From assembly GCF_003859805.1 (NCBI RefSeq), contig NZ_RQZG01000004.1:62001-126000 (forward strand): DNA of 64,000 bases, written 5' to 3'. Below, piece by piece: positions 3,123 through 31,702 of the stretch (positions within the stretch are counted from its first letter, which is position 1; the number at the start of each line of letters is the position of its first letter). This stretch comes from Arachnia propionica (GTDB lineage: Bacteria; Actinomycetota; Actinomycetes; Propionibacteriales; Propionibacteriaceae). The translations under genes were made by a program, and so were the position numbers. The notes beneath the pieces were generated by a model. That model did no database searches. It had not been told where the DNA came from and saw nothing but the letters and a program-made list of their open reading frames with translations.

Positions 3123-3893
3123 ATGACCGAGACCACGACCGCCCGTTCGGGTCAGCCCTGCTGGATCGAGTTGTATGCGAGCGTGCCGGAGCAGTCCGCG
3201 GAGTTCTACCGCGAGCTGTTCGGCTGGAACATCGAGGAGATGGACTCCGACTGCCCGCTGTCGCATGTCATCACCCAGGGAGAGCAGATGGTGGGGACCA
3301 TCGAGCCCCTGGCCGATGGCCCGGTCCCTGCGGATGGCTGGCTGGTGTGCCTGTGGACGCCGGACCTGACGGCACTCGTCGCCCGGGTGGTGCCCGCCGG
3401 TGGCGAGGTCGTCGTCGAACCGATCCAGGTGGACGAGTCGACCCGCTACGCCGTGGTCCGCGATCCCGACGGCGGGCTCGTCGGTGTGCTGGAGGACCCC
3501 AACTTCGTGCCCGCCGTGCCCGGCGCGGGGACGCCCGTGTGGTTCGACGCCCTCACCCGGGACCTGGAGCGGGGAGCGAGGTTCTACCGTGAGGTCTTCG
3601 AGTGGGACACCCACCCCATGTCGGACGCCCCGTACGTCACCCACGGTGTGGGGGAGGACAGCGTCTGCGGCATCGGGGACCTGGGGTACTTCGGGGCGCC
3701 GGGGGCCGAGCCCGGCTGGCAGGTGTACTTCGGCGTCGCGGACTTCGAGGAGGCCGCGCAGCACGTCGCCCGACTCGGCGGTGAGGTCGTGGTGGAGCCG
3801 CGGGACACGCCGTGGGGTCGGATGGCGACGGTGAAGGACCCGCAGGGAGCCGTCTTCCTCCTGATCCAGGTCGGTTCAGCTCCACAGGGCTGA
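3123..3893 (+). CDS. VOC-superfamily protein with two glyoxalase-like domains
   Basis: A 256-residue protein made of two tandem vicinal-oxygen-chelate domains (about residues 10-125 and 135-250). Each has the family pattern of an N-terminal WxEL or WFDAL strand, a SAxFYxxLFGW or GARFYREVFEW helix, and a C-terminal DPDGG or DPQGA strand. Members include glyoxalase I-like enzymes, bleomycin/fosfomycin resistance proteins and antibiotic-biosynthesis accessory proteins, so no substrate can be assigned. The ATG has a good GAGGAG site a few bases upstream. The last 18 bases overlap the 3' end of the convergent ATPase gene. Confidence 0.85.
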   Translation: MTETTTARSGQPCWIELYASVPEQSAEFYRELFGWNIEEMDSDCPLSHVITQGEQMVGTIEPLADGPVPADGWLVCLWTPDLTALVARVVPAGGEVVVEPIQVDESTRYAVVRDPDGGLVGVLEDPNFVPAVPGAGTPVWFDALTRDLERGARFYREVFEWDTHPMSDAPYVTHGVGEDSVCGIGDLGYFGAPGAEPGWQVYFGVADFEEAAQHVARLGGEVVVEPRDTPWGRMATVKDPQGAVFLLIQVGSAPQG

Positions 3894-5108
3894 GACCGGC
3901 AGCGCCCAGAGGCTGGGACCCATGGGAAGTGGGTCGGGGTGGAGGCTCAGCACCACCCCGCCCCGGAACCGGGGTCCCAGCCGATCCCGCAGCTTCGCGA
4001 GCGTGGCGAAATGGTCGAAGCGGACGGTCTGTGAGGCCTTGACCTCGATTCCCCAGACCCTGCCGTCGGCAAGCTCGATGATGATGTCCACCTCGTTGCC
4101 GCGTGAATCGCGGAAGTGGTGAAGGTTGTACTGCTGCTCGGACCAGGTCCGTTGTTTGAGAAGCTCTGTGGCGACAAAGCTCTCCAGCAGGCCTCCGAGC
4201 TGAGGGCTCCCGGGGGTGGCGAGCTGCTCCTGGGAGGCGCCCACCAGATGGGCTGCGAGCCCGACGTCACGGATCCCGCTCTTGGGTTTGCCTGTCACAC
4301 GTTGGAGGGGATTGTTGGTCCACGGTGGCAATGTGTAGGTGAGGAACAGGCGGCTCAACAGATCAAGGTACGGCGTGATCGACGTGGCCGGGAGATCGGC
4401 CCGGGAGGCCGCGTGGGCCTTCACCAGTTCCCCGGACTGGTTGGCGGCGAGGACGCGCAGCAACTGGTACAGACGTCCGGGCTGGTAGGGAACGCCGAGA
4501 TCCCCGGCATCCCGCTGAACCGACTGGGTGAGGTATGAGTCGAACCAGAGGCGACGGGTTCGGGGGGGCAGCTGCTGGACCTCCGGGAATCCTCCCCGGA
4601 TCATTCGATGGGAGTAGTCGGTGAGCCCGAGAGGTGAGGATGCAGCGTCGCCGGGATTGCGTTCCAGGAGGGCAACGAAGTCCTCAACATGGTCGTGGAG
4701 TTCTCCCTGGGAGAATCCCTCGACCTGGAGCAACGCCGCACGGCCGGCGAGAGAGTCGGGGGTTCGTTGTAGACGCAGTAGGTCAGCGGACCCGGTCAGG
4801 ATGAATCGTCCGGGGCGTCGGTCCCGGTCGATCGTCGCCTTGATGTCCAGCATCAGTTCGGGGCGTCGTTGAAGCTCGTCGATGACCAGTGTTCCCGTCC
4901 CTGCCATCGTCAGGTAACCGACAGGATCATGTTCGGCGAGGGACAAAGTGCTGGCGTCGTCCAGAGTGGTGTAGTGGGCTCCCTGAGCAGTGAGCAGACG
5001 CGCCAAGGTCGACTTGCCCACCTGGCGGGCACCCAGCAGCATCACGGCCGGGAAAATGGCCAACGCTTCTGCGGCGATGGACTGGAGATTACGAGGTCGA
5101 ACGGCCAC
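3876..5108 (-). CDS. AAA ATPase with DUF4143 domain (iteron-associated locus 1)
   Basis: A 410-residue cytoplasmic protein. The N-terminal AAA_14-type ATPase domain has Walker A GARQVGKST (residues 26-34), Walker B TLVIDELQ (about 73-80) and a sensor-like ILTGSADLL. The C-terminal DUF4143 region contains GNEVDIIIE...GIEVKAS (337-359), which fits the D...ExK core of PD-(D/E)XK nucleases. This family is widespread and its function is not established. The GTG start has no Shine-Dalgarno sequence; a TAGGCT hexamer lies exactly six bases before it, predicting a leaderless mRNA. Four 22-bp direct repeats sit immediately upstream. The 3' end overlaps the convergent VOC gene by 18 bases. Related intact genes lie at 6872-8131 and 30395-31702. 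Confidence 0.88.
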   Translation of the reverse strand: MAVRPRNLQSIAAEALAIFPAVMLLGARQVGKSTLARLLTAQGAHYTTLDDASTLSLAEHDPVGYLTMAGTGTLVIDELQRRPELMLDIKATIDRDRRPGRFILTGSADLLRLQRTPDSLAGRAALLQVEGFSQGELHDHVEDFVALLERNPGDAASSPLGLTDYSHRMIRGGFPEVQQLPPRTRRLWFDSYLTQSVQRDAGDLGVPYQPGRLYQLLRVLAANQSGELVKAHAASRADLPATSITPYLDLLSRLFLTYTLPPWTNNPLQRVTGKPKSGIRDVGLAAHLVGASQEQLATPGSPQLGGLLESFVATELLKQRTWSEQQYNLHHFRDSRGNEVDIIIELADGRVWGIEVKASQTVRFDHFATLAKLRDRLGPRFRGGVVLSLHPDPLPMGPSLWALPVSALWS

Positions 5109-5124
5109 GGCCCCAGCCTAGCTT

Positions 5125-5203
5125 TCGTAGTTCTGCCACCCAAATCTCGTAGTTCTGCCACTAATCTCTCGTAGTTCTGCCAGCACTTTCTCGCAGTTCT
5201 GCC
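5125..5203 (-). repeat. four direct repeats with 22-bp period upstream of ATPase locus 1
   Basis: On the gene strand the core GGCAGAACTACGA starts at 5203, 5181, 5159 and 5137, an exact 22-bp spacing. The distal copy differs at one base (GGCAGAACTGCGA). The nine intervening bases vary, apart from a frequent GA directly after the core. The proximal core ends four bases before the TAGGCT -10 box at 5115-5120, so it occupies the region where a -35 element would lie. Likely binding sites for a regulator, possibly the ATPase itself (inference). Confidence 0.92.
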
Positions 5204-5243
5204 TGGCGATCACGCGACGGGGTGGACTGGGGGTCAAGGCCGG

Positions 5244-6050
5244 TCAGGCGGAGGAGAGGAGCGCCGCCAGGCCGGACAGGATCGTCGAGCGGGCCCTGGC
5301 GGCCACATCGAGGACCGCCGACGGGTCGGTCGGGGCGGTGGCGAAGGACAGGTCGGAGACCACCGACATCCCGCACACCCGGACACCGAGCGCGTGGAGC
5401 ATGAGGGCCTCCATCACCGTCGACATGCCGACGCAGTCCACCCCGGCGGCGGCCAGCAGGCGGGTCTCGGCGCGGGTCTGGTACTCGGGGCCGCGGAGGA
5501 CGGCGTAGGTTCCGGCACGCTGGCACACGCCGACCAGGATGGCGGTCAGCTCCTCGTCCCAGCAGGTGGTGGTGTCGAGGAAGATGGTGCCGTCGAACGG
5601 GGAGGTGCCCGTGAAGTTGACGTGATCGGTGATGGCCATCACATCGCCCAGCTCCCAGTCGCGCAGGCAGCCGTTGGCGTTGGTGAGGACGGCCTTGCCC
5701 GCGCCCGCACAGTGTGCGGCCCGGGCCAGCGCGGTCACGGGGCGTGGGCCGTGTCCCTCGAAGAGATGGGTGCGGCCGAGCGCCACCGCCACCCGCTGCC
5801 CACCGAAGCGGTAGGTGCGCAGCTCGTCGACGTGGCCGTCGCCCACCGGGGCCAGGACCCCCGGCAGATCGGACTGGCGCATCCGGGTGAGCGGTTCGGG
5901 CCAGTCCGGGGCCGCATCCAGGGCGTCGGCGAGACCGGAACCCAGCACGACGAGCACGTCGAGGCTCCCGCCGGCGGCCTGGATGAGGAGATCACCTCCC
6001 GCGCGATCGGCGTCGTCGATGAGGTGGCTGGGGAATTCGGAAGGTTGCAT
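5244..6050 (-). CDS. purine nucleoside phosphorylase (trimeric type)
   Basis: A 268-residue enzyme of the PNP/MTAP family (EC 2.4.2.1 type), which splits purine nucleosides with phosphate. Family landmarks are the phosphate loop VVLGSGL, GRTHLFEGH (compare GRxHxYEGH), TNANG, GPEYQTRAE and VGMSTVMEA with the following MSVVSDLSF. The ATG at 6050 is preferred to the in-frame ATG at 6068 because AGGACG lies five bases before it. Salvage of purine nucleosides would fit with the NCS1 permease nearby, although the two are on opposite strands and separated by the ATPase locus. TNANGC and GPEYQTRAE differ a little from the usual TNAAGG and GPxYETPAE, so substrate preference may be altered. Confidence 0.88.
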   Translation of the reverse strand: MQPSEFPSHLIDDADRAGGDLLIQAAGGSLDVLVVLGSGLADALDAAPDWPEPLTRMRQSDLPGVLAPVGDGHVDELRTYRFGGQRVAVALGRTHLFEGHGPRPVTALARAAHCAGAGKAVLTNANGCLRDWELGDVMAITDHVNFTGTSPFDGTIFLDTTTCWDEELTAILVGVCQRAGTYAVLRGPEYQTRAETRLLAAAGVDCVGMSTVMEALMLHALGVRVCGMSVVSDLSFATAPTDPSAVLDVAARARSTILSGLAALLSSA

Positions 6051-6149
6051 GGCACGTCCTCGGGGCATGGGTGATCTGCATCTACGATGCCCGCACCGGG
6101 TAAAGAGGTCAATGAGGACCGGGACATCGTGGCTGTCTCGGTGGGGAAG

Positions 6150-6875
6150 TCAGCACGACGGCTCGTGGTGGGCAGTGGTTGTCTGAAGCCAGGTGGCGAT
6201 GTCGGTCAGGCTGGCGGCTCGGGAGGGGCGACCGCGTCGGTTCGTGGTCGCGGCTCGGTTCAGCCAGATGCCATGCAAACCAGCGCTTTCTGAGCCAACT
6301 GCGTCGGTCTCGAGATCGTCCCCGATGAACCAGGCCTGTTCCGGGGCGACGCCGAGATCATCGCAGACCTGCAGGAAGAGGTGAGGATCGGGTTTGCGGA
6401 CGCCCAGCGTCGAGGAGGCATACATCGGCATCGACCCCAGCCCGATGGCAGTGAGCTTCGCCTGCTGTTGCATCTGGTGTCCGTTGGTCACGACCGCGAC
6501 CAAGGGAGGGACTGGAAGAGCTGCGACGGCATCCAGGAAGGGGAGGACGTCGTCGAAGGGGCGCCACGAGGATTCGTAGCGTGCGAGGTGGCCTTCGAAC
6601 CAGGACAGCGAATCCGCGCGGGAAAGAGCGACTGCCCCGTGGGCCGCCAGGAAGGCAGTGATACGGGCCACACGTTGCTCCTCGAAGGTCAACTCGCCGT
6701 CGAGATAGCGCTGGAAGTGCTCTGCCTCCAAGGCGCGCCACAGGGCCACCGAGTCCTCGGTGGGTGACAGATCACGGTCGGCCAGCACGGCGAGGATCGC
6801 ATGGGCGCTCGCGCCCGCATGATCCATCAGCGTTCCGTCCAGATCCATCAGAAGGGCGCGTGGCCGGGTCGTCAT
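6150..6875 (-). CDS. HAD-superfamily hydrolase, coupled to ATPase locus 2
   Basis: A 241-residue haloacid dehalogenase-like phosphatase. Motif I is LLMDLDGTL near the N-terminus with both nucleophile aspartates, motif II is VVTNG, motif III is the lysine in RKPDPHLF, and motif IV is FIGDDLETDAVG. The cap between motifs I and II is helical (subclass I). The ATG at 6875 overlaps the stop of the upstream ATPase gene (ATGA) and has a GGAGGG ribosome binding site, so it is translationally coupled to it. Substrate unknown; members act on sugar phosphates, nucleotides or damaged metabolites. Confidence 0.88.
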   Translation of the reverse strand: MTTRPRALLMDLDGTLMDHAGASAHAILAVLADRDLSPTEDSVALWRALEAEHFQRYLDGELTFEEQRVARITAFLAAHGAVALSRADSLSWFEGHLARYESSWRPFDDVLPFLDAVAALPVPPLVAVVTNGHQMQQQAKLTAIGLGSMPMYASSTLGVRKPDPHLFLQVCDDLGVAPEQAWFIGDDLETDAVGSESAGLHGIWLNRAATTNRRGRPSRAASLTDIATWLQTTTAHHEPSC

Positions 6876-8131
6876 GATCCCTCCCACAGGGTCGACAGTG
6901 GCAGGGCCCAGATGTCGTCGCCGAAGCTGAGGGGCCGGTCGATGGGGGCGAGTACCACAGCTCTGGTCAGTCGAGGCCCCAGTTGCTCTCGGAGGAAGCG
7001 CAGCCCAGAGACGTGGGAGCCCGTGACGGTGCGGCTCGCCTTGACCTCGATGGCGAGGAGCTGTGAATCGTCGGCCTCCAGGATGAAATCCACTTCCTTG
7101 CCGTTCCGGTCGCGGTAGTGGAACATGCGATACCGGGTCTGACTCCACCCGGACTGGGCGTGCAACTCGCCAGCGACGAATCCCTCCGTCAGGGCGCCGA
7201 GGAGCTGCATGCCGTGAGGGATTCTGGTGAGGGACGCAGCCGATGCGCTGCACAGCCAGCTCGTCAACCCGGAGTCCACGATGGAAACCTTGGCCCTTCC
7301 GGTTTCCCGCTTGGTCAGATTGGGGGTCCAGGGTGCCACGTGAAGAGTCAGGAACAAGCGGTTCAGCATGTCCAGGTAGGAGCCTGTCGATGAGGCGGCG
7401 AGGCCTGCTTCCTGGGCCAGTTTCGCCTTCACCAGCTCGCTTGACTGCTGGGCAGCGATCAGGCGGAGCAGTGCCAGCATTCTGTCAGGGTTGAGACGGG
7501 CGCCATCCGCCAAGGCGTCGACCCGAACCAATCGTTCGATGTACCCGTGGTACCACTCGTCCCGAACTCGTGGGGCGACATTGTGCACTGCTGGGAACCC
7601 TCCCGCCGTGATCATGGCTGCCAGGTCGCCGTGGCTCATGGGGGTGCTCGTGGTGAAGTCATGGGGGTGGTTGGCCGCCCCCAGCCGGTCCACGAAGGTG
7701 CCTTGTGCCGCAGTGCCTCGGATCTCGGACTGGGTCAGCGGGCAGACGGTCACCGACAGAGCCCGCCCGGCCAGCGAATCCTTGTCGCCGCGTACTCGTG
7801 CGAAGTCCGACGATCCGGTGAGGATGAAGCGCCCCGGATGACGATCAGCGTCGATGCTCGCCTTGATGGCCAGGGACAACGCGGGAAGCCGTTGGAACTC
7901 ATCGATGATGAGGGTGCCCTCCCCGGCCTGGGACACGAACCCGACGGGGTCATTGCGGGCGTACTCCAAGGTGCGGATGTCGTCGAGGTTGACCGCAACG
8001 GCTTGCGGGCGGAGCATCCGGGCCAAGGTCGACTTGCCGGTTTGTCTGGCTCCTTCGATGACGAGGACCGGTGTGAATCCGAGCAGTTCCTCAGCCCAAG
8101 GTTGGATGGCGCGCGCAATCAGCCGTGGCAT
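6872..8131 (-). CDS. AAA ATPase with DUF4143 domain (iteron-associated locus 2)
   Basis: A 419-residue paralogue of the protein at 3876-5108. Walker A is GARQTGKST (27-35), Walker B is GTLIIDEFQ, and a sensor-like ILTGSSDFA follows. The C-terminal part contains GKEVDFILE...AIEVKAS (344-366), the same D...ExK arrangement of PD-(D/E)XK type. The ATG has no ribosome binding site. TAGACT lies exactly six bases before it, as in locus 1 (TAGGCT), which again predicts a leaderless transcript. Four 23-bp direct repeats lie just upstream. A HAD phosphatase gene is coupled downstream. Confidence 0.88.
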   Translation of the reverse strand: MPRLIARAIQPWAEELLGFTPVLVIEGARQTGKSTLARMLRPQAVAVNLDDIRTLEYARNDPVGFVSQAGEGTLIIDEFQRLPALSLAIKASIDADRHPGRFILTGSSDFARVRGDKDSLAGRALSVTVCPLTQSEIRGTAAQGTFVDRLGAANHPHDFTTSTPMSHGDLAAMITAGGFPAVHNVAPRVRDEWYHGYIERLVRVDALADGARLNPDRMLALLRLIAAQQSSELVKAKLAQEAGLAASSTGSYLDMLNRLFLTLHVAPWTPNLTKRETGRAKVSIVDSGLTSWLCSASAASLTRIPHGMQLLGALTEGFVAGELHAQSGWSQTRYRMFHYRDRNGKEVDFILEADDSQLLAIEVKASRTVTGSHVSGLRFLREQLGPRLTRAVVLAPIDRPLSFGDDIWALPLSTLWEGS

Positions 8132-8151
8132 CGCACCAGTCTACCCATCTC

Positions 8152-8232
8152 GTCGTTTCGCTGGCACTCATCTTGTCGTTTCGCTGGCACCTATCTTGTC
8201 GTTTCGCTGTCACTCATCCCGTCGTTTCGCTG
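8152..8232 (-). repeat. four direct repeats with 23-bp period upstream of ATPase locus 2
   Basis: On the plus strand GTCGTTTCGCTG starts at 8152, 8175, 8198 and 8221, an exact 23-bp period; on the gene strand the core reads CAGCGAAACGAC. The 11-base spacers also resemble each other (GCACTCATCTT, GCACCTATCTT, TCACTCATCCC). The proximal copy lies eight bases from the TAGACT box at 8138-8143. The sequence differs from the array of locus 1, but the layout is the same. Confidence 0.92.
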
Positions 8233-8248
8233 AGTGTTCTGCTGCGTT

Positions 8249-8271
8249 CCCCGGGCCGACAGGGCCCGGGG
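8249..8271 (-). terminator. hairpin downstream of the secreted 5'-nucleotidase gene
   Basis: Perfect inverted repeat: CCCCGGGCC pairs with GGCCCGGGG around a five-base loop (GACAG). It lies about nine bases after the stop codon of the minus-strand nucleotidase gene. No T run follows. Confidence 0.7.
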
Positions 8272-8279
8272 TGCTCATG

Positions 8280-10196
8280 TCATCGAGGATGACCTGCCCG
8301 CCCGTCGAGCCCCTCGACAACGCTGATCCCGGTCCTCGGCAGCCCCGGCTTCGGGTGCGGCGGCTGCGGCTTCGACGGGCTGGGCGCGGGCGTCGTCGGA
8401 GCCGGGCTCGGCGCCGGGGGAGTGGGCATGTCCCACACGTCCCCCTCGAACACGGGCTTGCCGTCGATCACCAGCCGCCAGTTGCGGACGAAGAAGTCCG
8501 ACTGATCGATGACACCGCGTGCCGTGGCCCAATCGATGAGCTCCTGCCGAATCTCCAGCAGATCGTCGTAGACCACCGGGGCCGTGGCCACGTGCGGGAA
8601 GATCCCGCCGCCGCTGGCCCGGTAGTTGTTGACCGCCACGACGAACTGCTCGTCATCGGTGACGGGGGTGCCGTCCGGGTGCTGCAACGTCACGATCCGC
8701 TGCCCCAGCGGCCTGGCCAGGTCGATCTCGTAGCGCAGGCCCGAGATGATGTCGTAGTTGTAGTCACGCACCGTCTCGCCGTTGCGCTCGACGCCTGTCA
8801 TCGTCTCGGGATCGAAGGTGCCGCCCGGTGGGACCTCGGCGAAGTACTTCGCCGAGTACTCCAGGTAGTCACGGACCTGGGCGCCGGTCAGGAGCCTCGC
8901 CTGCAGGGTGTTGTCGTAGATGTAGAGGCCCGCCATGTCGCGGATCGTCACATCGCCCTTCGGGAAGACGGCGGTGCGGCTGAACGGGGCAGCCAGGCTC
9001 AGCACCGGCAGGTTCGCGTACTGGCCACCGGCGAGCGCCTTCTTCACCGTCGCGGTCTGCACCATCTGGATGTAGTCGATGATCGGGGTGTCCCGGTAGC
9101 GCGACTCGGTGGCGGGCAGTTCCTCCTTCGACGATGCGACCTTTGTGTTCACGTAGGCGACGGTGACATCGTGCGGCCCCTGAACGGCTGCGGTCACGGC
9201 CGGATCCGGGGCGAAGTCCTTCATGTGGTGGGCGGTCGCACCGTTCGTGGTGACCTCCCAGGCGTCGCCGTTGCGGGTCAGGTCGAAGGTGAGGTCGGCG
9301 ACACTGGACGCCCAGAACCTGGGCTGCGACAGCAGCACCTTCTCACCGGTGGCAGCGTTCGTCTCCCACTGCTCGGGGACGTCCTTGTGGGTGTGACCGA
9401 CGACGATGGCGTCGATGCCCGGCACCTGGCGGGCGATCTCGTCGGCCGGGTTCTCCGGCGGCAGGTCTCCCGAGTAGCTGGAGACCCCGACGCCCGCGTG
9501 GCTCAGCACGACAACGATGTCGGCGCCGGCTTCACGCACCCGCGGCACCCAGGTCCTCGCTGAGGTGACCATGTCGTCGATCCTCAGCACACCGTCGAGA
9601 TGGGCCTTGTCCCACACCATCGAGCCCGGCGTGGTGAGCCCCAGGATGCCGATGGTGACCTCCTGCCCCTTGATGGTGCGCTTCTCGAGGTGGTACGGGG
9701 TGAAGGCGTTCGAACCGTCGGAGACCTTGACCACGTTCGCGGCCAGCAACGGTGCCTCGAGCTGTCTCTCGTAGGCGCCGAGCAGGTCGAGCCCGTAGTT
9801 GAACTCATGGTTGCCGACATTCGTGGCGTCGTAGTCGACGGCGTTGAAGGCGGCCGCCATCGGGTGGGTGGCACCGGTGGTGGTGATGGGGGCCTGCTTG
9901 GCGTAGTAGGTGGTCAACGGGGTGCCCTGGATGGCATCACCGTTGTCGACCACCACGACGCTGTCGGCGCCGCGCTCGGCCCGGATCTGGTTGATCGCGG
10001 TCGCGGCCTGGGCCATGCCGACCTGGTGGCCGCCGCGGTCCTGGAACGGGGCGTTGCGGAAATAGTCCCAGTTGAGGACGTGACCGTGGACATCGGTCGT
10101 GGCGAGCACGGTGACACGTATCGGTTCCTCCGCGTGGGCCACCGGGGTGGTGAATCCGAGGAACAGGGCAAGAATCACGACGATGCTTCGACGCAT
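8280..10196 (-). CDS. secreted 5'-nucleotidase / cyclic phosphodiesterase with C-terminal LPRTG
   Basis: A 638-residue exported protein of the UshA/YfkN family, which hydrolyses extracellular nucleotides. A signal peptide (MRRSIVVILALFLG..., cleavage near AHA-EE) precedes a metallophosphatase domain with TTDVHGH, NGDAIQG, GNHEFNYG and GHTH. The C-terminal 5'-nucleotidase domain contains NYRASGGGIFPH. A proline-rich linker (about 570-615) then leads to KPGLPRTG. Only 15 mainly polar residues follow, with no hydrophobic helix or basic tail, so this is not a standard sortase substrate. Two other secreted proteins in this window end in a similar way. The product would supply nucleosides for the phosphorylase encoded at 5244-6050 (inference). 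Confidence 0.9.
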   Translation of the reverse strand: MRRSIVVILALFLGFTTPVAHAEEPIRVTVLATTDVHGHVLNWDYFRNAPFQDRGGHQVGMAQAATAINQIRAERGADSVVVVDNGDAIQGTPLTTYYAKQAPITTTGATHPMAAAFNAVDYDATNVGNHEFNYGLDLLGAYERQLEAPLLAANVVKVSDGSNAFTPYHLEKRTIKGQEVTIGILGLTTPGSMVWDKAHLDGVLRIDDMVTSARTWVPRVREAGADIVVVLSHAGVGVSSYSGDLPPENPADEIARQVPGIDAIVVGHTHKDVPEQWETNAATGEKVLLSQPRFWASSVADLTFDLTRNGDAWEVTTNGATAHHMKDFAPDPAVTAAVQGPHDVTVAYVNTKVASSKEELPATESRYRDTPIIDYIQMVQTATVKKALAGGQYANLPVLSLAAPFSRTAVFPKGDVTIRDMAGLYIYDNTLQARLLTGAQVRDYLEYSAKYFAEVPPGGTFDPETMTGVERNGETVRDYNYDIISGLRYEIDLARPLGQRIVTLQHPDGTPVTDDEQFVVAVNNYRASGGGIFPHVATAPVVYDDLLEIRQELIDWATARGVIDQSDFFVRNWRLVIDGKPVFEGDVWDMPTPPAPSPAPTTPAPSPSKPQPPHPKPGLPRTGISVVEGLDGRAGHPR

Positions 10197-10247
10197 GGCT
10201 CTCCTGAGGTTGTGGGTGGCATCAGCATAACCACGCCGGGCCTGTTC

Positions 10248-10676
10248 TCAGGGATGCAACGGGTTGATCCACTGGATCTCGGTGAAACGGGCGAAGTCCC
10301 CATCGAAGGACACCACGGGAACGCTGTGTTCCAGCGCAAGTGCAGCCAGCTGGGCATCGGGAACCAGGTTCCCGGTGACATGGTGTCGGGATGCCAGACT
10401 CGCGTAGATGGCAACAGTCCGCTTCGAGACCGAAGGGATCCATGCAGCGGGTTGGGCCAGCCAGGCGGAGATGAAGGCGTGGGCCTCGTCATGGGTCATG
10501 GGCGAGGGCGAGAGTCGTGGGTGTGTCGTGATGCGGTGGAAGGCGCCGATGCTCTGCCAGGGAAAACCGAGACGTCTCCCGGAGGCGTATGCGGCGCGCA
10601 ACCAGGCATGCGACCTCTGGTGGAACGGTGAGAGAACATCTGCAGCGTGGATGAGTACGTTGGCGTCGAGGATCAC
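10248..10676 (-). CDS. vapC: PIN-domain ribonuclease toxin, VapC type
   Basis: A 142-residue PIN-domain protein. The N-terminal MILDANVLIHA provides the first acidic metal ligand, and VPDAQLAALALEHSVPVVSFDGDFARF gives the later acidic residues. The central SIGAFHRITTHPRLSP matches the VapC subgroup common in actinobacteria. The GTG start overlaps the stop of the upstream ribbon-helix-helix gene (GTGA), the usual antitoxin-toxin arrangement. Expected to cleave RNA when not bound by the antitoxin. Confidence 0.85.
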   Translation of the reverse strand: MILDANVLIHAADVLSPFHQRSHAWLRAAYASGRRLGFPWQSIGAFHRITTHPRLSPSPMTHDEAHAFISAWLAQPAAWIPSVSKRTVAIYASLASRHHVTGNLVPDAQLAALALEHSVPVVSFDGDFARFTEIQWINPLHP

Positions 10677-10909
10677 GTGGGATCGCCCTCAGAATCCAGC
10701 ACCTCCAGTGCCTCCGCGACGTTCACGACATCAAGTCTGATGCCGATGGGCCTTGGCTCGGGCAAGGGGACAGAGGGGACCTGCTGGTGCAGCATCATGC
10801 CGCGTCGGATGAGGATGGCGACCGCTTCACTGACCCCGATGCCATCCTCGCGTCTCAGCCTCTTGATCTCGGCGTGGATGTCCGCGGGCAACGTGATGGT
10901 CGTCCTCAT
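10673..10909 (-). CDS. vapB: ribbon-helix-helix antitoxin, VapB-like
   Basis: A 78-residue protein starting MRTTITLPADIHAEIKRL, a typical ribbon-helix-helix DNA-binding N-terminus, with VSEAVAILIRRG completing the second helix. The C-terminal half (PLPEPRPIGIRLDVVNVAEAL) would bind the toxin. ATG at 10909 is chosen because the homology begins there; longer in-frame starts add a low-complexity leader. An imperfect inverted repeat (GTGGCATC...GATGCGCCAC, about 10919-10938) lies just upstream and could be the autoregulatory operator. Confidence 0.82.
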   Translation of the reverse strand: MRTTITLPADIHAEIKRLRREDGIGVSEAVAILIRRGMMLHQQVPSVPLPEPRPIGIRLDVVNVAEALEVLDSEGDPT

Positions 10910-10970
10910 GCGCCAAGGGTGGCATCGTGATGCGCCACGAAAAGGAGGCGGATGCATCCATCCGGATGAC

Positions 10971-11012
10971 GACGGAGCTGCCGCGTTCCCGAGGGGTCGC
11001 GGCAGCTCCGTC
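10971..11012 (-). terminator. terminator of the ornithine/alanine operon
   Basis: Perfect 15-bp stem: GACGGAGCTGCCGCG (10971-10985) pairs with CGCGGCAGCTCCGTC (10998-11012) across a 12-base loop. It lies five bases past the stop of the last operon gene (cycA-like) on the minus strand. Confidence 0.85.
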
Positions 11013-11016
11013 GAGG

Positions 11017-12456
11017 TCACTGCTGGTAGTGGGTCGTGCGCTGGGTGCCGTGCCTGGCCCGGTACACCAGGTAGCAGATGCCGAGCAGGATGAACCAGAT
11101 GGGGGTGATGAAGACCGCCTGCCGCGTGTCCTCATAGAAGCAGAGGATCACCACGCTGACCGCGAAGAACACGAGCACCGCCCAGGACATGAAGACACCG
11201 AAGGGCATCTTGTAGGTGGACTTCGCGTGCAGCTCAGGATGTTTGCGGCGGTACACCAGGTAGCACACCACGATCAGGGCCCAGATGAACAGGAACAGGA
11301 TCGAGGTGATCGAGGTGACCAGTTTGAACGCCGCGATGATGCTCTCCGAGGTGTAGAGGAAGACCACACCGCACAGCAGCAGCAGGCAGGAGCAGATCAA
11401 CGCGTTCTGCGGCACACTGCGCCTGGACAGCCGGGCGAATGCCTTTGGCGCCTGCCCGTCGACCGCCAGGCCGTACATCATCCGGGAGGTGGAGTACAGC
11501 CCGGAGTTGTCCGACGACGCGGCCGCGGTCAGCAGCACGAAGTTCATCACCGAGGCCGCAGCACCGAACCCGGCCAGGCCGAACATCGCGACGAAGGGGC
11601 TCTCCCCGGGCACCACCTGCCGCCACGGGATGACCGCGGCGATGGCGGCCAGGGCCAGCACGTAGAACAGCGCCAACCGAACCGGAATGGCGTTGATGGC
11701 CTTCGGCAGGGTCTTCGTCGGATCCTTGGTCTCCGCCGCAGCGGTGCCGACCACCTCGAGGCCGACGAAGGCGAAGAACGCGATCTGGAACCCGCCCAGG
11801 AAGCCCATCACTCCGTTGGGGAAGAAGCCGCCGTCGTTCCACAGGTTGTCGATCCGTGCCGCATGCCCATCCGGGGAGACGAAGGCGGTTGCCAGCAGCC
11901 AGATCGCGACGATCAGCAGGGCCCCGACCGCGACCAGCTTGATCAGTGCGAACCAGAACTCCGCCTCGCCGAAGAACCGCACCGCGACGACGTTGAGCAC
12001 GAAGAGCACCACCGCCAGGGCAACCGCGGGTAGCCACAACGGCACCTTCTTCCACCAGAACTGCGCGTATCCGGTGATGGCGGCCAGGTCGGCCATCGCG
12101 GCCACGATCCAGGCGAACCAGTAGGTCCAGCCCGCCATGAAGCCGCCCGCAGGACCGAGGATGTCCTCGGCGATGTCACGGAACGACTTGTACTTCAGGT
12201 TGGACAGGAGCATCTCTCCCATCGCCCGCATCATGAAGTAGAGGAAGAAGCCGATCACCGCGTACACCAGCATGGCCGACGGGCCCGCCTGATTGATCGT
12301 GTCGCTTGACCCCATGAACATGCCGGTGCCGATGGCCCCGCCCAGCGCCATGAGCTGGAGGTGTCGGTTGCTCAGCCCACGCTGCAGCTGCTGCTCCTCC
12401 GGCACCGGCGCGGCACCGACGACGTCGTCGGGGTGGTTGTCCTGCGAAATACTCAT
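11017..12456 (-). CDS. cycA: D-serine/D-alanine/glycine-type amino acid permease
   Basis: A 479-residue APC-family transporter with 12 hydrophobic segments. The N-terminal RGLSNRHLQLMALGGAIGTGMFMGS, then FFAFVGLEVVGTAAAETKDP, is the AAT-subfamily pattern, and the overall sequence is closest to CycA. ATG at 12456 has AGGAG upstream; a longer in-frame start at 12540 would overlap ald. It is the last gene of the operon that begins with ord and is followed by a strong terminator. Because 2-amino-4-oxopentanoate thiolase releases D-alanine, a D-alanine/glycine carrier here makes sense as exporter or importer of the end product (inference). Confidence 0.85.
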   Translation of the reverse strand: MSISQDNHPDDVVGAAPVPEEQQLQRGLSNRHLQLMALGGAIGTGMFMGSSDTINQAGPSAMLVYAVIGFFLYFMMRAMGEMLLSNLKYKSFRDIAEDILGPAGGFMAGWTYWFAWIVAAMADLAAITGYAQFWWKKVPLWLPAVALAVVLFVLNVVAVRFFGEAEFWFALIKLVAVGALLIVAIWLLATAFVSPDGHAARIDNLWNDGGFFPNGVMGFLGGFQIAFFAFVGLEVVGTAAAETKDPTKTLPKAINAIPVRLALFYVLALAAIAAVIPWRQVVPGESPFVAMFGLAGFGAAASVMNFVLLTAAASSDNSGLYSTSRMMYGLAVDGQAPKAFARLSRRSVPQNALICSCLLLLCGVVFLYTSESIIAAFKLVTSITSILFLFIWALIVVCYLVYRRKHPELHAKSTYKMPFGVFMSWAVLVFFAVSVVILCFYEDTRQAVFITPIWFILLGICYLVYRARHGTQRTTHYQQ

Positions 12457-12497
12457 CTGAACTCCTTTGTTCCTTGTCCGGACCCTGCCGGTCGTGG

Positions 12498-13613
12498 TCA
12501 CTCCAGGACCTGGTCGATGGGGGTGTGGTCGAGCTGCCATGTCGATGCCACGGGCTCGTTGGTGAGCCGACCGTGAGCGGTCGACAGTCCCCGGGCCAGC
12601 GTCGGGTCGTCCCGCAACGCGGCCTGCCAGCCGGCATCGGCGATCTGGGTGACATAGGGCAGCGTCACGTTCGTCAGCGCGTAGGTCGAGGTCACCGGGA
12701 CCGCCCCCGGCATGTTCGCCACCGCGTAGAACACGGAGTCGTGCACCGCGTAGGTCGGGTCCTGATGGGTGGTGGGACGGGTGTCGGCGAAGCAGCCGCC
12801 CTGATCGACGGCGATGTCGACGAATGCGGACCCGGGCTTGGCCCGGGAGACCAACTCGTTCGAGACCAGCTCGGGGGCACGCGCTCCCGGCACCAGCACC
12901 GCACCGATGACGAGGTCCGCCTCCCGGACCGCCTGTTCGATGGCGTAGGGCGTGGACATCACGGTCTTGATCTGGCCCTTGAACTCGGCATCGATGGCAT
13001 CCAGGGTCAGGGCGTTGATGTCGAGGATGGTGACATCAGCGCGCAGCCCGTGCGCGACCAGTGCCGCATTGCGGCCTGCGGTGCCACCACCCAGGACCAC
13101 GACCTTGGCCGGGTTCACCCCGGGCACCCCCGGGACCAGCAGCCCCATCCCACCGTTGTGCTTGTGCAGCGCCTGGGTGCCGGCCAGGGCCGACAGACGA
13201 CCCGCAACCTGGCTCATCGGTCGCAGCAGCGGCAGGGCACCGCTGTCGGTCTGCACCGTCTCGTAGGCGATGGACACGGTGCCCGAGTCCAGCAGGGCCT
13301 TCGTCTGCGGTTCATCGGCGGCCAGGTGCAGGTAGGTGAACAGCACCAGGTCGTCACGGAGATGGGGGTACTCCGCGGCGATCGGTTCCTTCACCTTGAC
13401 CAGCAGTTCGGCCTGCCCCCAGACCTCCGCGGCATCGGGGACGATGGTGGCGCCGGCGTCACGGTACTGCTCGTCGGTGATTCCCGAACCGAGCCCGGCA
13501 CCCTGTTCGATGAGCACCTGGTGGCCTCGACCGGTCAGCTGGTGCACCCCGGCCGGGGTCATCGCCACGCGGTGCTCCTGGGGCTTGATCTCCTTGGGAA
13601 CCGAAATTCTCAC
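12498..13613 (-). CDS. ald: alanine dehydrogenase
   Basis: A 371-residue NAD-dependent L-alanine dehydrogenase (EC 1.4.1.1), interconverting L-alanine with pyruvate and ammonia. The N-terminal MRISVPKEIKPQEHRVAMTP, the LLVKVKEP segment, the nucleotide-binding VVLGGGTAGRNAA and the C-terminal GAVPVTSTYALTN block match the family. The GTG start has GAAGGAG six bases before it. It sits between the ornithine racemase gene and the permease gene in one operon. It would re-oxidise or consume alanine formed by OrtAB, provided D-alanine is first racemised. Confidence 0.95.
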   Translation of the reverse strand: MRISVPKEIKPQEHRVAMTPAGVHQLTGRGHQVLIEQGAGLGSGITDEQYRDAGATIVPDAAEVWGQAELLVKVKEPIAAEYPHLRDDLVLFTYLHLAADEPQTKALLDSGTVSIAYETVQTDSGALPLLRPMSQVAGRLSALAGTQALHKHNGGMGLLVPGVPGVNPAKVVVLGGGTAGRNAALVAHGLRADVTILDINALTLDAIDAEFKGQIKTVMSTPYAIEQAVREADLVIGAVLVPGARAPELVSNELVSRAKPGSAFVDIAVDQGGCFADTRPTTHQDPTYAVHDSVFYAVANMPGAVPVTSTYALTNVTLPYVTQIADAGWQAALRDDPTLARGLSTAHGRLTNEPVASTWQLDHTPIDQVLE

Positions 13614-13642
13614 TGTCTTCTCCTTCGTTGGATGTTGAGTGG

Positions 13643-23743: not shown

Positions 23744-23863
23744 TCACGGTCCGAGCAGGGCCAGCGGGACGACGGCGACCCCTTTCGCGCCGTCCAGGGC
23801 GATGGCTGGAGCCTGGGTGAGGAAGGTGTCCAGCAGGGTGTCCACGGTGCGGTGAAGGTACAC
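23744..23863 (-). pseudogene. truncated relic of an AAA ATPase/DUF4143 gene (iteron-associated locus 4)
   Basis: A short frame from GTG at 23863 (good GGAGGAGAC site) reads VYLHRTVDTLLDTFLTQAPA then IALDGAKGV and ends soon after. This matches the N-terminus of the intact ATPase at 30395-31702 (YRWRIIDDELDVLLSGVAAV, then ALDGPKGIGKTT) up to the Walker A loop, where the relic loses the GKT residues and stops 10 residues later. The rest of the gene is absent. Two 23-bp direct repeats upstream, as at the intact loci, support the assignment. Confidence 0.7.
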
Positions 23864-23892
23864 GTCTCCTCCAGGGTGGTCGGCAGGAAGTC

Positions 23893-23932
23893 TGGTCGAC
23901 ATCCAGCAGGTGGTTTGGTCGACATCCAGCAG
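23893..23932 (-). repeat. two direct repeats with 23-bp period upstream of the ATPase relic
   Basis: TGGTCGACATCCAGCAG occurs at 23893-23909 and 23916-23932 on the plus strand (gene strand CTGCTGGATGTCGACCA), a 23-bp period. The proximal copy lies 29 bases from the GTG of the relic. No third copy is recognisable at the expected distance on either side. Confidence 0.85.
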
Positions 23933-24018
23933 AAACATCCGAGTGCTGCCCGAGCTGCTTCACCCTCGTGCCCCGACGTAGGATGTCGTCGTCCTCGAGG
24001 TCACAGGAAAGGGAACCC

Positions 24019-24840
24019 ATGCTGCTCGACCACGTCATCGTGTCCCGCACGTCGTATCGGAGTGGTCGCACCTACGACATCATCATGTCGAACGTCTCCG
24101 TGGTGAACCACCTGCTCGATGAGGGAGCTGAGGGTGACGAACTGTCCCCGGAGGCGCTCGGCTCCTACCACGTCGACTTCTACGAGGCGCAGGTCGAGAA
24201 CGGTGGCATCGACCAGTTTGTCCACAACAGTGGCTGGGACCCGTTCATCATCGGACACGTGAGCAAGGGGCTGGAGTTGATGGGCGCCACCCGGCACGCG
24301 GAGCTGTTCGCCCGGGTCCAGCAGGTCATGGACTCGCTGTCCGACGAGGAGCGGGCCGCGATCTGGGACGACGGCGTGTTCGGCGACGACCGGGTGACGG
24401 CCTTCGACGTGCTCACCGACGAGTTCGTCGAGCTGAACGAGGAGGAGAGGTTGGAGACCCTCAACGCGGCCTTCCTCAGGGGACTGCCGAACCTCGAGGT
24501 GGTGCGGCGACGCGACCTGGAGGAGCGACTGGCGGGCGTCATCGCCACCATCCCGGACCTGGAGCAGCGGCTGGCCGAGCGTGCCGCGCAGGCCGAGGCC
24601 ACCAAGCCGCGCTTCGCCCGCGTCATCGAGGCGATCTGTGCGGACCGGGGCTGGGAGCTGGAGACCATCACGGCAGGGGATCCGACGGCCACCCATGACG
24701 GCCAGCAGGTCATCGGTTGGCACTTCCTCACCGATCACGGACATCACTGGATGATCGACCTCGGCGACCGGGCCGTCGTGTATGACACCGACGACAACGA
24801 GATCGGCGTCGTCGACGTCTCAGCGGTCCCCGGGGAGTGA
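24019..24840 (+). CDS. DUF4375 (DMP19-like) family protein, copy A
   Basis: A 273-residue protein with the DUF4375/DMP19 signature VENGGIDQFVHNSGWDP followed by GLELMGATRHAELF (residues about 60-95). In Neisseria the family member DMP19 is a DNA-mimic protein; for other members the role is unknown. The remainder is acidic and helical, with a C-terminal part (VIGWHFLTDHGHHWMIDLGDRAVVYD) that looks like a small beta domain. ATG at 24019 follows AGGAAAGGGA. The 3' end overlaps the convergent pseudogene by about 20 bases. A paralogue lies at 25641-26423. Confidence 0.75.
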   Translation: MLLDHVIVSRTSYRSGRTYDIIMSNVSVVNHLLDEGAEGDELSPEALGSYHVDFYEAQVENGGIDQFVHNSGWDPFIIGHVSKGLELMGATRHAELFARVQQVMDSLSDEERAAIWDDGVFGDDRVTAFDVLTDEFVELNEEERLETLNAAFLRGLPNLEVVRRRDLEERLAGVIATIPDLEQRLAERAAQAEATKPRFARVIEAICADRGWELETITAGDPTATHDGQQVIGWHFLTDHGHHWMIDLGDRAVVYDTDDNEIGVVDVSAVPGE

Positions 24841-25640: not shown

Positions 25641-26423
25641 ATGCGTATCGGGGAGCACATCTGGCTCGGGTCGGAGACGGTGACGAGGGAGCGTGAGTCG
25701 GGCGATGACTGGGCACTGACCCACGCGAACACCCTTGCGGTGCGTGAGTTCCTGAGCTGTCGCGATGGTGGTGTCATCGATGCGGCCTTGCTCCACCCGG
25801 ACGCGGTGGGGGCCTGCGAGCTGGACGCCTTCATCGGTTTGTCCATGAGGGGAGGGCTTCTTGGACACATCTGGAACTCCGGCTGGGACCCCGACACGGT
25901 GGCGGAGGTGGAGCGGACCCTGGGCCGGGTCGGAGCGACGAGGCACCAGGAGGCCTTCCGAGCAGTCGTGGCCCGGATCGACGCGGTTCCGGAGGAGAAG
26001 GAGCTGCTGCTGGAGTGGGAGGTGCTCCCCGATGCCCTGGGGCGGGACCTGGCGGTGCTGTGGTCGTCCGAGATCGAGGGTGACCTGTTCGACGTCCTCG
26101 ACCTGAACGAGGCCTTCCTGGCGGGGCATCCGGACCTCGCCGTCGTGCCCGAGGCGGAGCTGAAGGTACTGCTGGCCGAGGCTGAAACGCTCCCGATGCG
26201 TCCCCGGCGCCCGGTGAGACGGTACGTTGCCGTGGTGCGGGCGGCCTGCGCAGCCGCAGGGTTGAAACTCGCGAGTATCCAGGAACGCGACCCTTACTTC
26301 TGCTTCGAGGGGGAGCCGCGACGCTCCGTGGCATTTCTGGCCAGCGATGGTCGACGGTACAGGGCGGTCATACTGGGGGATCAGGTAACGCTCGTGGACG
26401 ACGCGGGCGAGGAGCTTCGGTGA
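25641..26423 (+). CDS. DUF4375 (DMP19-like) family protein, copy B
   Basis: A 260-residue paralogue of the protein at 24019-24840. It keeps RGGLLGHIWNSGWDP and RVGATRHQEAF, corresponding to NGGIDQFVHNSGWDP and LMGATRHAELF in copy A, and has a similar C-terminal beta-rich end (VAFLASDGRRYRAVILGDQVTLVDD). The rest has diverged strongly. ATG at 25641 follows AAGGAGG. It is flanked by a 56-bp direct repeat, suggesting that the DUF4375/membrane-protein unit was duplicated and then reduced. Function unknown. Confidence 0.72.
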   Translation: MRIGEHIWLGSETVTRERESGDDWALTHANTLAVREFLSCRDGGVIDAALLHPDAVGACELDAFIGLSMRGGLLGHIWNSGWDPDTVAEVERTLGRVGATRHQEAFRAVVARIDAVPEEKELLLEWEVLPDALGRDLAVLWSSEIEGDLFDVLDLNEAFLAGHPDLAVVPEAELKVLLAEAETLPMRPRRPVRRYVAVVRAACAAAGLKLASIQERDPYFCFEGEPRRSVAFLASDGRRYRAVILGDQVTLVDDAGEELR

Positions 26424-26938: not shown

Positions 26939-26950
26939 AAGGTGGGCACA

Positions 26951-28644: not shown

Positions 28645-29237
28645 CCGACAGGGTCGGCCACCGGTTCCCTGGCCAGCATCCGCTGTTCACCGACGTCTCC
28701 TTCGAGCTCACACCAACCTCCCTCTACGGGATCGTGGGTCCATCCGGCTCCGGCAAGAGCACCCTGCTGTCCATCCTCTCCGGCGGACTCACCCCCACGG
28801 CAGGCAGCATCACGGCCGACGGCGTGGAGCGCATCGGGTGGATCATGCAGAACCCCGTCGGCCCCCCGCGCCGCACCGCCCTCGATCAGATCGTCCTCCC
28901 GCTGCTCGCCCGCGGATACACCCGTGCCGAGGCCGAACCTGAGGCCGAAGAACTGCTTCAGCGCTTCGGCCTGGGCGAGGTGGCGGGCCGAGAGTTCCGG
29001 AGGCTCTCCGGCGGCGAGGCGCAGCGGCTCTGCCTCGCCCGGGCCGTCGCCAGCAACCACGACGCGATCCTCATCGACGAGCCCACGGCGCAGCTGGACC
29101 GCGACACCGCCCACTCCATCAGCGACGTCATCCGCGAAATGGTCTCAAAGGAGCGCATCGTCGTGCTCGCCACCCACGATGAGCTGCTCAAGAAGCGCTG
29201 CGACGAGCTGCTGAACATCGCCGAGGAGAAACCATGA
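28632..29237 (+). CDS. ABC transporter ATP-binding protein
   Basis: A 201-residue MacB/LolD-type ATPase. Walker A is GPSGSGKST, the signature is RLSGGEAQRLCLARA and Walker B is AILIDEPTAQLD. GTG at 28632 follows AAGGA and starts the usual N-terminus VRLVADRVGHRF; the open frame extends further upstream without homology. It overlaps the adaptor gene by 13 bases and the permease gene by four (ATGA). Confidence 0.92.
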   Translation: MRLVADRVGHRFPGQHPLFTDVSFELTPTSLYGIVGPSGSGKSTLLSILSGGLTPTAGSITADGVERIGWIMQNPVGPPRRTALDQIVLPLLARGYTRAEAEPEAEELLQRFGLGEVAGREFRRLSGGEAQRLCLARAVASNHDAILIDEPTAQLDRDTAHSISDVIREMVSKERIVVLATHDELLKKRCDELLNIAEEKP

Positions 29238-30292: not shown

Positions 30293-30314
30293 CCCACAAC
30301 ACCCCCATGGCCCC

Positions 30315-30397
30315 AGTGCAGATGTATAGTCTGTAACAGTGCAGATGTATAGTCTGTGGTAGTGCAGATGTATAGTCTGTGGTAGTGCAGATGTATG
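30315..30397 (+). repeat. four direct repeats with 23-bp period upstream of ATPase locus 3
   Basis: AGTGCAGATGTATAGTCTGT starts at 30315, 30338 and 30361, and a partial copy (AGTGCAGATGTAT) starts at 30384: an exact 23-bp period. The full copies are nearly identical, with only the three bases after the core changing (AAC, GGT, GGT). Each contains TATAGT, a good -10 box. The fourth copy runs into the start codon of the ATPase gene. Confidence 0.93.
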
Positions 30398-31702
30398 GTT
30401 AAGGCGGTTTCAGTGCCTGTTCAAGCGGTTTTGGAGCAAGGGTATCGATGGCGGATCATCGACGATGAACTGGACGTCCTGCTCTCCGGTGTTGCTGCCG
30501 TCGCGCTGGATGGGCCCAAGGGAATCGGCAAGACGACGACCGCGCTGCAGCGTGCCGCGTCCATTCTCCGGTTGGATCGGGTGGAGGACCGAACAGAGCT
30601 GAAGGCCGACCCGGATGCGCTGCTGACCCGGCCGTGCCCGCTCCTCATTGATGAATGGCAACGGCTTGCCTGGGTCTGGGACTCAGTGCGTCGAGCTGTT
30701 GACGATGGGGCTGAGCCAGGGGCGTTCCTCCTCACCGGAAGCGCCACCCCAACAGGGGAGGTCACGCATTCGGGGGCTGGGCGGATCGTGTCGCTCAGGA
30801 TGCGACCGTTGGCGTTGCCCGAGCGGGGCATCGCCCACCCCACGGTGTCGCTGAGCGCACTGCTCGATGGCGAGGGGGCTGCCCTGGCGGGGGAGTGCCA
30901 GTTGAGGCTGCCGGACTACGTGGAGGAGATCGCCGCATCCGGGTTCCCGGGTATCCGGGGGCTGCCGCCTCGAGTGCGTCGAATCCAACTGGACTCATAC
31001 CTGACCCGTGCATTCACCCGTGACCTCCGCGATGAACAGGGGGTCAGGGTGAGGCATCCAGCGACACTTCGTGCCTGGGCACGAGCCTATGCCGCGGCCT
31101 CCTCCACCACGACCTCCTGGGAACACATCCGACATGAGGCCACGCCGGGTGACGGGGACCCACCCAGTCGAGCCACCGCAGTCACCTATCGTGACTGGCT
31201 CACCGCCTTGTGGTTGTTGGACCCGGTGGCCGCATGGCTGCCCGTGGGTGCAGGGCTGGGCAAACTCCAACAGGCGCAGAAGCACCAGCTTGCGGACCCG
31301 GCCCTGGTGATGCGACTGATGTCGCTCGACCCGGCGATGCTCATGCGGGAGGGGAGGGCGGCCCGCCACAGTGGGGGCCTGCTCGGCGCCCTGTTCGAGA
31401 GCCTGGCCACCCAGACGGTCCGTGTGCTCGCGCAGGCAGCGGAAGCGCAGACCTACCACATGCGCACCGCCAACGGGGCGCGTGAGGTGGACCTCGTGGT
31501 GGAGCGCTTCGACGGTCGTTGTCTCGGTATTGAGGTCAAACTCACGGCAGCGCCGGATGACGACGATGTACGTCATCTTCGCTGGCTCCGTGACAAGGCG
31601 CCTGACCGGGTTGCGGACGTGGTCATCCTCACCACGGGGTCTCGCGCCTATCGGCGTCGCGACGGTGTGGGCGTCATCCCGCTCGGTCTGCTGGGGCCGT
31701 GA
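30395..31702 (+). CDS. AAA ATPase with DUF4143 domain (iteron-associated locus 3)
   Basis: A 435-residue protein of a second subgroup of the family. Walker A is GPKGIGKTT (40-48), Walker B is PLLIDEWQRL, and the sensor is LLTGSATPTG. The C-terminal domain has AREVDLVVE...GIEVKLT (362-384), again the D...ExK core. The ATG at 30395 lies inside the fourth repeat; an alternative in-frame GTG at 30413 is possible. No Shine-Dalgarno sequence is seen for either. The TATAGT of the third repeat is 18 bases before the ATG. Its end overlaps the convergent exporter gene by 29 bases. Confidence 0.85.
   Translation: MVKAVSVPVQAVLEQGYRWRIIDDELDVLLSGVAAVALDGPKGIGKTTTALQRAASILRLDRVEDRTELKADPDALLTRPCPLLIDEWQRLAWVWDSVRRAVDDGAEPGAFLLTGSATPTGEVTHSGAGRIVSLRMRPLALPERGIAHPTVSLSALLDGEGAALAGECQLRLPDYVEEIAASGFPGIRGLPPRVRRIQLDSYLTRAFTRDLRDEQGVRVRHPATLRAWARAYAAASSTTTSWEHIRHEATPGDGDPPSRATAVTYRDWLTALWLLDPVAAWLPVGAGLGKLQQAQKHQLADPALVMRLMSLDPAMLMREGRAARHSGGLLGALFESLATQTVRVLAQAAEAQTYHMRTANGAREVDLVVERFDGRCLGIEVKLTAAPDDDDVRHLRWLRDKAPDRVADVVILTTGSRAYRRRDGVGVIPLGLLGP

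Follow-up and report, generated by a model that had tools for sequence, protein, structure and literature searches.

We analysed a 64,000-nucleotide stretch of the Arachnia propionica genome (NCBI RefSeq assembly GCF_003859805.1, contig NZ_RQZG01000004.1, positions 62,001 to 126,000 of the forward strand; hereafter the window, in whose coordinates positions are given) that carries three intact genes and one relic of the AAA_14/DUF4143 ATPase family, each with its own array of 22- or 23-bp direct repeats at the start. Gene 1 (3876..5108, minus strand) encodes 410 amino acids from a GTG start codon, an AAA_14/DUF4143 ATPase with a PD-(D/E)XK-like C-terminus. Its array (5125..5203, minus strand) holds about four copies of a 22-bp repeat with the gene-strand core GGCAGAACTACGA (Tandem Repeats Finder, TRF: period 22, 3.6 copies). 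Gene 2 (6872..8131, minus strand; 419 amino acids, ATG start) is preceded by about four 23-bp repeats with the core CAGCGAAACGA (8146..8232, minus strand; TRF period 23, 3.8 copies), and gene 3 (30395..31702, plus strand; 435 amino acids) by nearly four 23-bp repeats with the core GTGCAGATGTATAGT (30314..30399, plus strand; TRF 30314-30396, period 23, 3.6 copies), the last of which overlaps the annotated ATG. In the relic (23744..23863, minus strand), a family N-terminus of ~29 residues, up to the P-loop, is fused in one reading frame to the last ~10 residues, which points to an internal deletion that left the array in place (23883..23932, minus strand; 23-bp repeats, TRF period 23, 2.2 copies); the relic core, CTGCTGGATGTCGACC, is almost identical to the cores of the intact relatives L097, L053 and L102. 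When the window was scanned in 1823 overlapping tiles, a 22/23-bp self-match score of at least 12, our threshold for a passing direct-repeat array, was reached at these four loci only, in agreement with TRF and with a preliminary description of this DNA that had assigned each of the four its own array. The common core pattern proposed there, CWGNNNNWYRR, was not borne out: across 44 aligned 23-bp arrays from the gene 3 clade, the least variable positions are G at column 11 (94%) and T at column 17 (86%), the latter being the final base of the -10-like hexamer in the start-proximal repeat copy.

All three intact proteins match AAA_14 and DUF4143 above the Pfam cut-offs, and in PADLOC they are assigned to PDC-S01, AAA_14-DUF4143 ATPases which we take to be COG1373 (E values 1.7e-147, 2e-136 and 1.5e-66); the profile PDLC04790 covers residues 3-410, 1-417 and 18-433 of genes 1, 2 and 3, that is, the whole protein. 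AlphaFold2 models (predicted local distance difference test, pLDDT, 93.3 for gene 1 and 94.4 for gene 3) display the hallmarks of STAND/SSO1545-type AAA+ ATPases, namely Walker A and B motifs and a nucleotide-binding domain and winged helix arranged as in SSO1545 and NLR proteins. The best fold matches in the PDB are PAB2304 and SSO1545, followed by plant NLRs, CED-4, Avs5 and Orc2; these matches span mainly residues 9-349. A nuclease-like C-terminus, suspected previously from sequence motifs, fits the conserved set E335/D366/E380-x-K382, in which, among 88 sequences, D366 and K382 are invariant and E335 and E380 are each present in 90% or more; as in PD-(D/E)XK nucleases, the set combines an acidic helix residue with D and E-x-K on neighbouring strands. 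In the gene 3 model the strands run through residues 351-358, 364-371 and 376-381, the first two forming a hairpin whose turn begins with residue 359 and whose second strand carries the catalytic D366. Residue 260 lies at the start of helix 259-271 (31169..31207, plus strand), the third of the winged helix, which from its place in the helix order would be the recognition helix.

Repeats of this kind are found at the start of most members of the family in the genus. The 3.4-Mb genome carrying the window has PF13635 matches in 15 places, 12 of which (L001, L003-L008 and L010-L014) have 22/23-bp repeats at the start; L009 has two palindromes 40 bp apart, and L002 and L015 are broken or partial. 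The family is patchy in the genus, with matches in 27 of 39 genomes and 0 to 24 per genome. Our genus sample of 123 loci among the matches listed, mostly with open frames of at least 300 residues, yielded 137 open reading frames with a profile match (L041 had none), of which 110 were full length. Of these, 109 are distinct when close orthologues with any letter difference (e.g. those of genomes G000 and G018) are counted as separate genes. The 28 frames set aside comprise fragments, an exact duplicate and members of a divergent subfamily (L009, L112, L113, L120, L121 and L106). Of the 109 genes, 97 have a best start-proximal period of 22 or 23 and a further 6 one of 44 or 46 (103/109 in total), and 92 score at least 12 at one of these periods. 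When a 210-base stretch inside the same genes was used as a control, those periods were best in 8/109 and none scored 12 or more. Five broken or cut genes (L045, L085, L034, L117 and L002) likewise have a best period of 22 or 23, with scores below 12 for L117 and L002.

Outside the genus, we examined 91 distinct full-length relatives of gene 3 from other genera of the family and from other classes. The period is 22, 23 or 46 in 87 of them, with a score of at least 12 in 75 of those; inside the genes, a period of 22 or 23 was found in 3/91. Taken together, 190 of 200 genes have the 22/23-bp period or its double. We added 27 loci from plasmids, one phage record and named genome contigs; of the 22 full-length genes that they contain, two belong to the genus. 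Thirteen of the 22 have a best period of 22 or 23 and three a weak one of 46, and 11 score at least 12, nine of these outside the genus. Passing arrays outside the genus include those of Rhizobium, Thiotrichales, Kiritimatiellales, Lentilactobacillus and Sulfitobacter, so that other phyla are represented. The sample is drawn mostly from Actinomycetota, and the residue analysis below covers a single clade whose arrays have the 23-bp period.

Genes without a passing direct repeat tend to have a different feature at the same place. An inverted repeat scoring at least 10 lies near the start in 12 of 49 such genes, compared with 1/49 inside genes and 0/147 shuffles; among genes with passing direct repeats together with the validation set described below, the figure is 5/202 (4/202 for the inside control). 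Palindromes therefore go with the absence of direct repeats. Examples are the Moraxella bovis plasmid gene L157, with arms of ~21 bp at the start, and, within the genus, L017/L018.

The arrays overlap or abut the predicted core promoter of the adjacent ATPase gene, as judged from predicted -10 hexamers. A TAnnnT hexamer lies 6-7 nt 5' of an in-frame start codon in 74/109 genus genes and 67/91 others (141/200), compared with 44/545, 33/455 and 77/1000, respectively, in shuffles that keep the start codons. This spacing predicts a transcription start at the start codon, i.e. a leaderless transcript, and with it an array that lies upstream of the RNA and would act as DNA. Genes 1 and 2 have this geometry, with TAGGCT (5115..5120, minus strand) 6 nt 5' of the GTG of gene 1 and TAGACT (8138..8143, minus strand) 6 nt 5' of the ATG of gene 2. 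We also asked where else in the genome the sites occur. The gene 1 core is found exactly in its own array only, in three copies; allowing one mismatch adds a fourth copy in the array and six sites elsewhere, compared with seven for a reversed-pattern control. For gene 3, no genome site outside its own array matches an 18-mer of the array with up to three mismatches. The sites of genes 1 and 3 are thus confined to their own arrays, with no evident regulon beyond themselves. An array set on a predicted leaderless core promoter, together with the lack of other exact (gene 1) or near (gene 3) sites in the genome, makes probable the autoregulatory role that the preliminary description had listed among its possibilities.

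Evidence that the protein itself may read the repeats comes from co-variation between residues and bases. For 44 members of the gene 3 clade, the 23-bp units were aligned on their letters alone, and each variable protein column was scored against each repeat column (residue numbers are those of gene 3; script numbers are one lower, so that 359, 260 and 362 are script 358, 259 and 361, respectively). The top cell pairs residue 359 with repeat column 5, where C accompanies Arg or Lys in 26 of 26 genes and any other residue in 0 of 18. The complement of C is G, a base often contacted by Arg and Lys. For validation, 74 of the 91 outside-genus genes were close and repetitive enough, 69 of them with a confident register; their median best identity to the training set is 57%. 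Column-5 C accompanies Arg or Lys at 359 in 31/33 of the 74 genes and other residues in 7/41, and in a blind rerun on the 69 the same cell ranks 1 of 5543. In the combined confident-register set (113 genes) the counts are 55/56 and 7/57.

The pair was also followed across relatives. Greedy nearest pairs of genes differing in Arg/Lys at 359 are concordant in 48 cases, discordant in none and tied in eight (n = 56). In a tree from which the hairpin and recognition-helix columns had been excluded, Arg/Lys at 359 changed at least 17 times, and of 10 independent pairs on supported branches, eight on average go in the same direction, none in the opposite one, and two are undecided (median p 0.008). 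Among the control rows listed for this tree-pair test, no other repeat column reaches a median p of 0.05. Residue 359 opens a loop (residues 359-363; 31469..31483, plus strand) at the tip of the hairpin, just ahead of the strand that carries the catalytic Asp. In the same loop, Arg at residue 362 accompanies G at column 2 in 8/8 genes, with five independent pairs and none against, too few for significance alone. The winged-helix residue 260 varies with columns 13-15. These three columns lie ~10 bp from columns 2-5, about one helical turn, so that the hairpin and the winged helix could touch one face of the DNA. Cognate recognition, which the preliminary description had deduced from the differing repeats, is thus favoured by the replicated co-variation of one residue with one repeat position, with weaker support from the others. 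Residue 83, near the Walker B strand, also scores highly with column 3. A sliding-window Mantel analysis over the protein gave a maximum partial correlation of 0.14, in windows within residues 96-132; with correlations this small, the recognition element was not located in that way.

Judged by comparison among 71 genes, the repeats evolve fast. Between proteins less than 60% identical, repeats match at 8.0-8.8 of 14 positions, compared with 8.3 when shuffled, rising to 9.8 at 60-80% protein identity and 13.4 at 80% or more (18 pairs). The period largely follows the protein clade. It is 23 for 44 of the 45 gene 3 clade members, and among the 20 genes of the clade containing genes 1 and 2 it is 22 for 13, 23 for five and 44 or 46 for two. 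The one gene 3 clade member with another best period, L044:4304-5558, lacks any array. Of 76 within-genome pairs, none has as many as 11 of the 14 core positions in common. Since between-genome pairs of like identity would lead one to expect ~1.5 such pairs, this count is consistent with, and too small to establish statistically, the orthogonality of paralogue addresses that the sequences suggest.

Starting from the observed arrays, the promoter geometry, the gene-private sites of two window genes and the residue-base co-variation, we propose, with a probability of roughly three in four, that each ATPase-nuclease binds its private iterons and represses its own gene. Each gene would encode a STAND-like ATPase, with a nucleotide-binding domain and a winged helix, fused to a PD-(D/E)XK domain, and this protein would bind the iteron array at the core promoter of its own gene, in most cases a leaderless one. 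Two parts of each repeat, separated by about one helical turn, would be read: columns 2-5 by the hairpin beside the nuclease active site and columns 13-15, which adjoin or lie inside the -10-like hexamer, by the recognition helix of the winged helix. The two-turn spacing of the repeats would align neighbouring protomers on one face of the DNA, and binding would cover the -10 region and so limit transcription of the gene. A potentially dangerous nuclease would thereby be kept scarce and tied to one private site, and new copies could persist beside existing ones by virtue of a diverged address. The model would further entail that protomers assemble along the array, that the ATPase switch controls the nuclease, that coexistence requires divergence and that the system finally acts against incoming DNA.

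Several observations weigh against this reading. Gene 3 lacks the 6-7 nt geometry when measured from its annotated ATG, a good hexamer, TATAGT (30371-30376), lying 18 nt 5' of that codon, and 59 of the 200 genes lack TAnnnT at 6-7 nt. Seven genes keep C at column 5 without Arg or Lys at 359. By tree pairs the association of residue 260 with G14 is borderline (median p 0.06) and that of Q260 with A14 is not significant, and three pairings that were striking in discovery (script residues 369, 370 and 359 with columns 6, 7 and 10) ranked ~1600-2300 of 5543 in validation and were withdrawn. In one relative (G031, L168:150-345), four to five gene-2-like repeats stand between the same neighbours with gene 2 missing; such an orphan indicates that arrays can outlive a function. 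Farther from the genus, many distant relatives have no direct repeats: among the best-scoring 30 phylum loci, with 29 full-length genes, periods of 22-24 or 46 occur in 13/29 and scores of at least 12 in 8/29. Absence of repeats upstream of most homologues, named at the outset as the finding that would count against a link between array and gene, is therefore not what is seen in the genus and family, and is partly what is seen farther out. The arrays mark large clades, not every DUF4143 gene.

A different view of the array is that it is the target of the nuclease or a homing address and not an operator, sites in incoming DNA or empty alleles being what is recognised and the copies at the own gene being a by-product or sink. 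The residue that best tracks the repeat sits in the hairpin beside the catalytic Asp, the catalytic set is kept, and the genes occur patchily in the genus (27 of 39 genomes, 0 to 24 each). Against this, the exact gene 1 sites and near gene 3 sites of the genome lie only at the gene itself, one-mismatch gene 1 sites elsewhere are at the control level (six and seven), and the core-promoter position of the arrays is kept. In IMG/VR, two-copy patterns of arrays 1 and 2 hit 0 contigs each, a 17-mer of gene 3 occurs in seven viral contigs as a single copy each, at a rough guess by chance, and no gene 3 relatives were found. Nor does a close relative offer a clean insertion. The window region is 93% similar over 9.4 kb to a region of the relative genome G018, which has an additional family gene adjoining a nucleotidase gene; beside this same nucleotidase gene the two differ without a clean empty site, and comparison of window positions 1-16000 with 16 kb of G018, in which similarity stops at 10217, revealed no target duplication. 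We consider a target or homing address unlikely, although it is the alternative that fares best.

It is far less probable that some other, unlinked regulator of the host uses the array as its operator. Small repressors such as RptR are known to have operators made of direct repeats over a -10 element (PMC12255303, in its available part), yet this view does not fit repeats that, where the proteins share less than 60% identity, resemble each other about as little as shuffled ones do, nor their co-variation with residues of the adjacent gene's protein. Hardly any weight falls on the idea of neutral tandem duplications tolerated upstream of expendable genes, with co-variation arising from shared ancestry, for although relic and orphan arrays persist and related sequences can inflate co-variation scores, the 22/23-bp or double period in 190/200 genes, the same periods in other phyla, replication at a median best identity of 57% and the zero counter-examples for residue 359 and column 5 in the tree-pair test all argue otherwise.

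Autorepression through cognate binding is the most economical reading. It may extend to a self-address system, in which the private array, read by nuclease hairpin and winged helix, marks the protein's own gene and serves both as operator and as a parking place that holds the nuclease inactive, release following loss or dilution of the array or the appearance of the same address on incoming DNA, and the paralogues of a genome diversifying until their addresses exclude one another. We offer this extension tentatively and think the odds somewhat against it as a whole. If true, a self-address principle would be common to one of the most abundant uncharacterised defence candidates, taking direct-repeat, single-palindrome and 40-bp-spaced-palindrome forms in different clades.

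Several known systems resemble parts of this arrangement. Iteron-regulated plasmid replication initiators have ~22-bp iterons beside the gene of the protein that binds them, with autoregulation and mutual exclusion, and the likeness lies in ~22-bp iterons next to the gene of the, here proposed, binding protein. They differ in that the window genes are not known as plasmid-borne and have no known origin function; no Rep initiator domain was found in the window proteins, whose Pfam matches are AAA_14, DUF4143 and weak AAA/Sigma54 only. The STAND ATPases MalT, IniR and those of the SSO1545 type have a fold in common with the window proteins. MalT has a separate C-terminal DNA-binding domain, and to our knowledge neither MalT nor IniR has a PD-(D/E)XK domain. 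IniR has an SSO1545-like domain, binds a promoter and also has a separate C-terminal DNA-binding domain, according to the part of its description available (PMC5760070). RptR, the autorepressor of a defence island, acts through three direct repeats at its own promoter, two of them overlapping the -10 element, in the available portion of that report (PMC12255303). The likeness is repression of the own promoter via direct repeats, which for the present family is our proposal. The difference is that RptR is a small separate repressor with a conserved 6-bp palindromic site, whereas here the ATPase-nuclease itself would regulate, the sites of paralogues differ and the spacing is 22/23 bp.

The link to defence rests on membership in PADLOC and one published hint from Thermus. 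The accessible part of a 2026 survey (PMC12988326) ranks PDC-S01 as the fourth most common defence across all prokaryotes, with a count of ~39,000 (9,986 in Archaea and 29,494 in Bacteria), and describes it as an ATPase fused to PD-(D/E)XK, noting that most such candidates await experimental validation. That part of the survey does not mention DNA arrays, autoregulation or residue-level recognition, whereas the present family has arrays and co-variation. In Thermus, an AAA_14/DUF4143 gene was up 6.6-fold in wild-type cells with a plasmid, and with Argonaute absent no gene changed more than 4-fold with the plasmid, as given in the available text (PMC4406477). Within the open-licence literature, mostly at the level of titles and the beginnings of abstracts, we found no published account of the array or its regulation for DUF4143, COG1373 or PDC-S01, and no tested mechanism for PDC-S01. 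The array suggests the DNA that each protein should bind, a residue that may set part of the specificity and a way to recognise intact members. If the residue-359 rule holds, the nuclease-associated hairpin would be a readable and changeable specificity element, and the paralogues of a genome, such as those in the 15 places here, might constitute a naturally occurring collection of separate repressor-operator pairs.

No common small partner gene of the toxin-antitoxin type was seen beside the window genes or in 12 plasmid loci with differing neighbours, which is not a systematic neighbour survey; in one of these loci, on an Acidithiobacillus plasmid (L165:1465-3109), a gene resembling Xre/MbcA/ParS-type antitoxins overlaps the end of the ATPase gene. 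The divergent DUF4143 subfamily (L009, L112, L113, L120, L121 and L106) has at its start two 20-bp palindromes, TTGTCGnyyATGATCGACAA, 40 bp apart; unlike the iterons, this palindrome is nearly constant across several genomes, L106 being the most diverged. One family member with a 23-bp array, L170, is on a contig labelled as a Klebsiella pneumoniae metagenome-assembled genome, a label that may be a binning error. Another metagenome-assembled contig (L168/L169) holds the gene 1 region twice, as identical, oppositely oriented 5.23-kb copies ~4 kb apart, either a real duplication or an assembly artefact. In the window itself, two genes for DMP19-like proteins lie near the relic, at 23968-24840 and 25641-26423.

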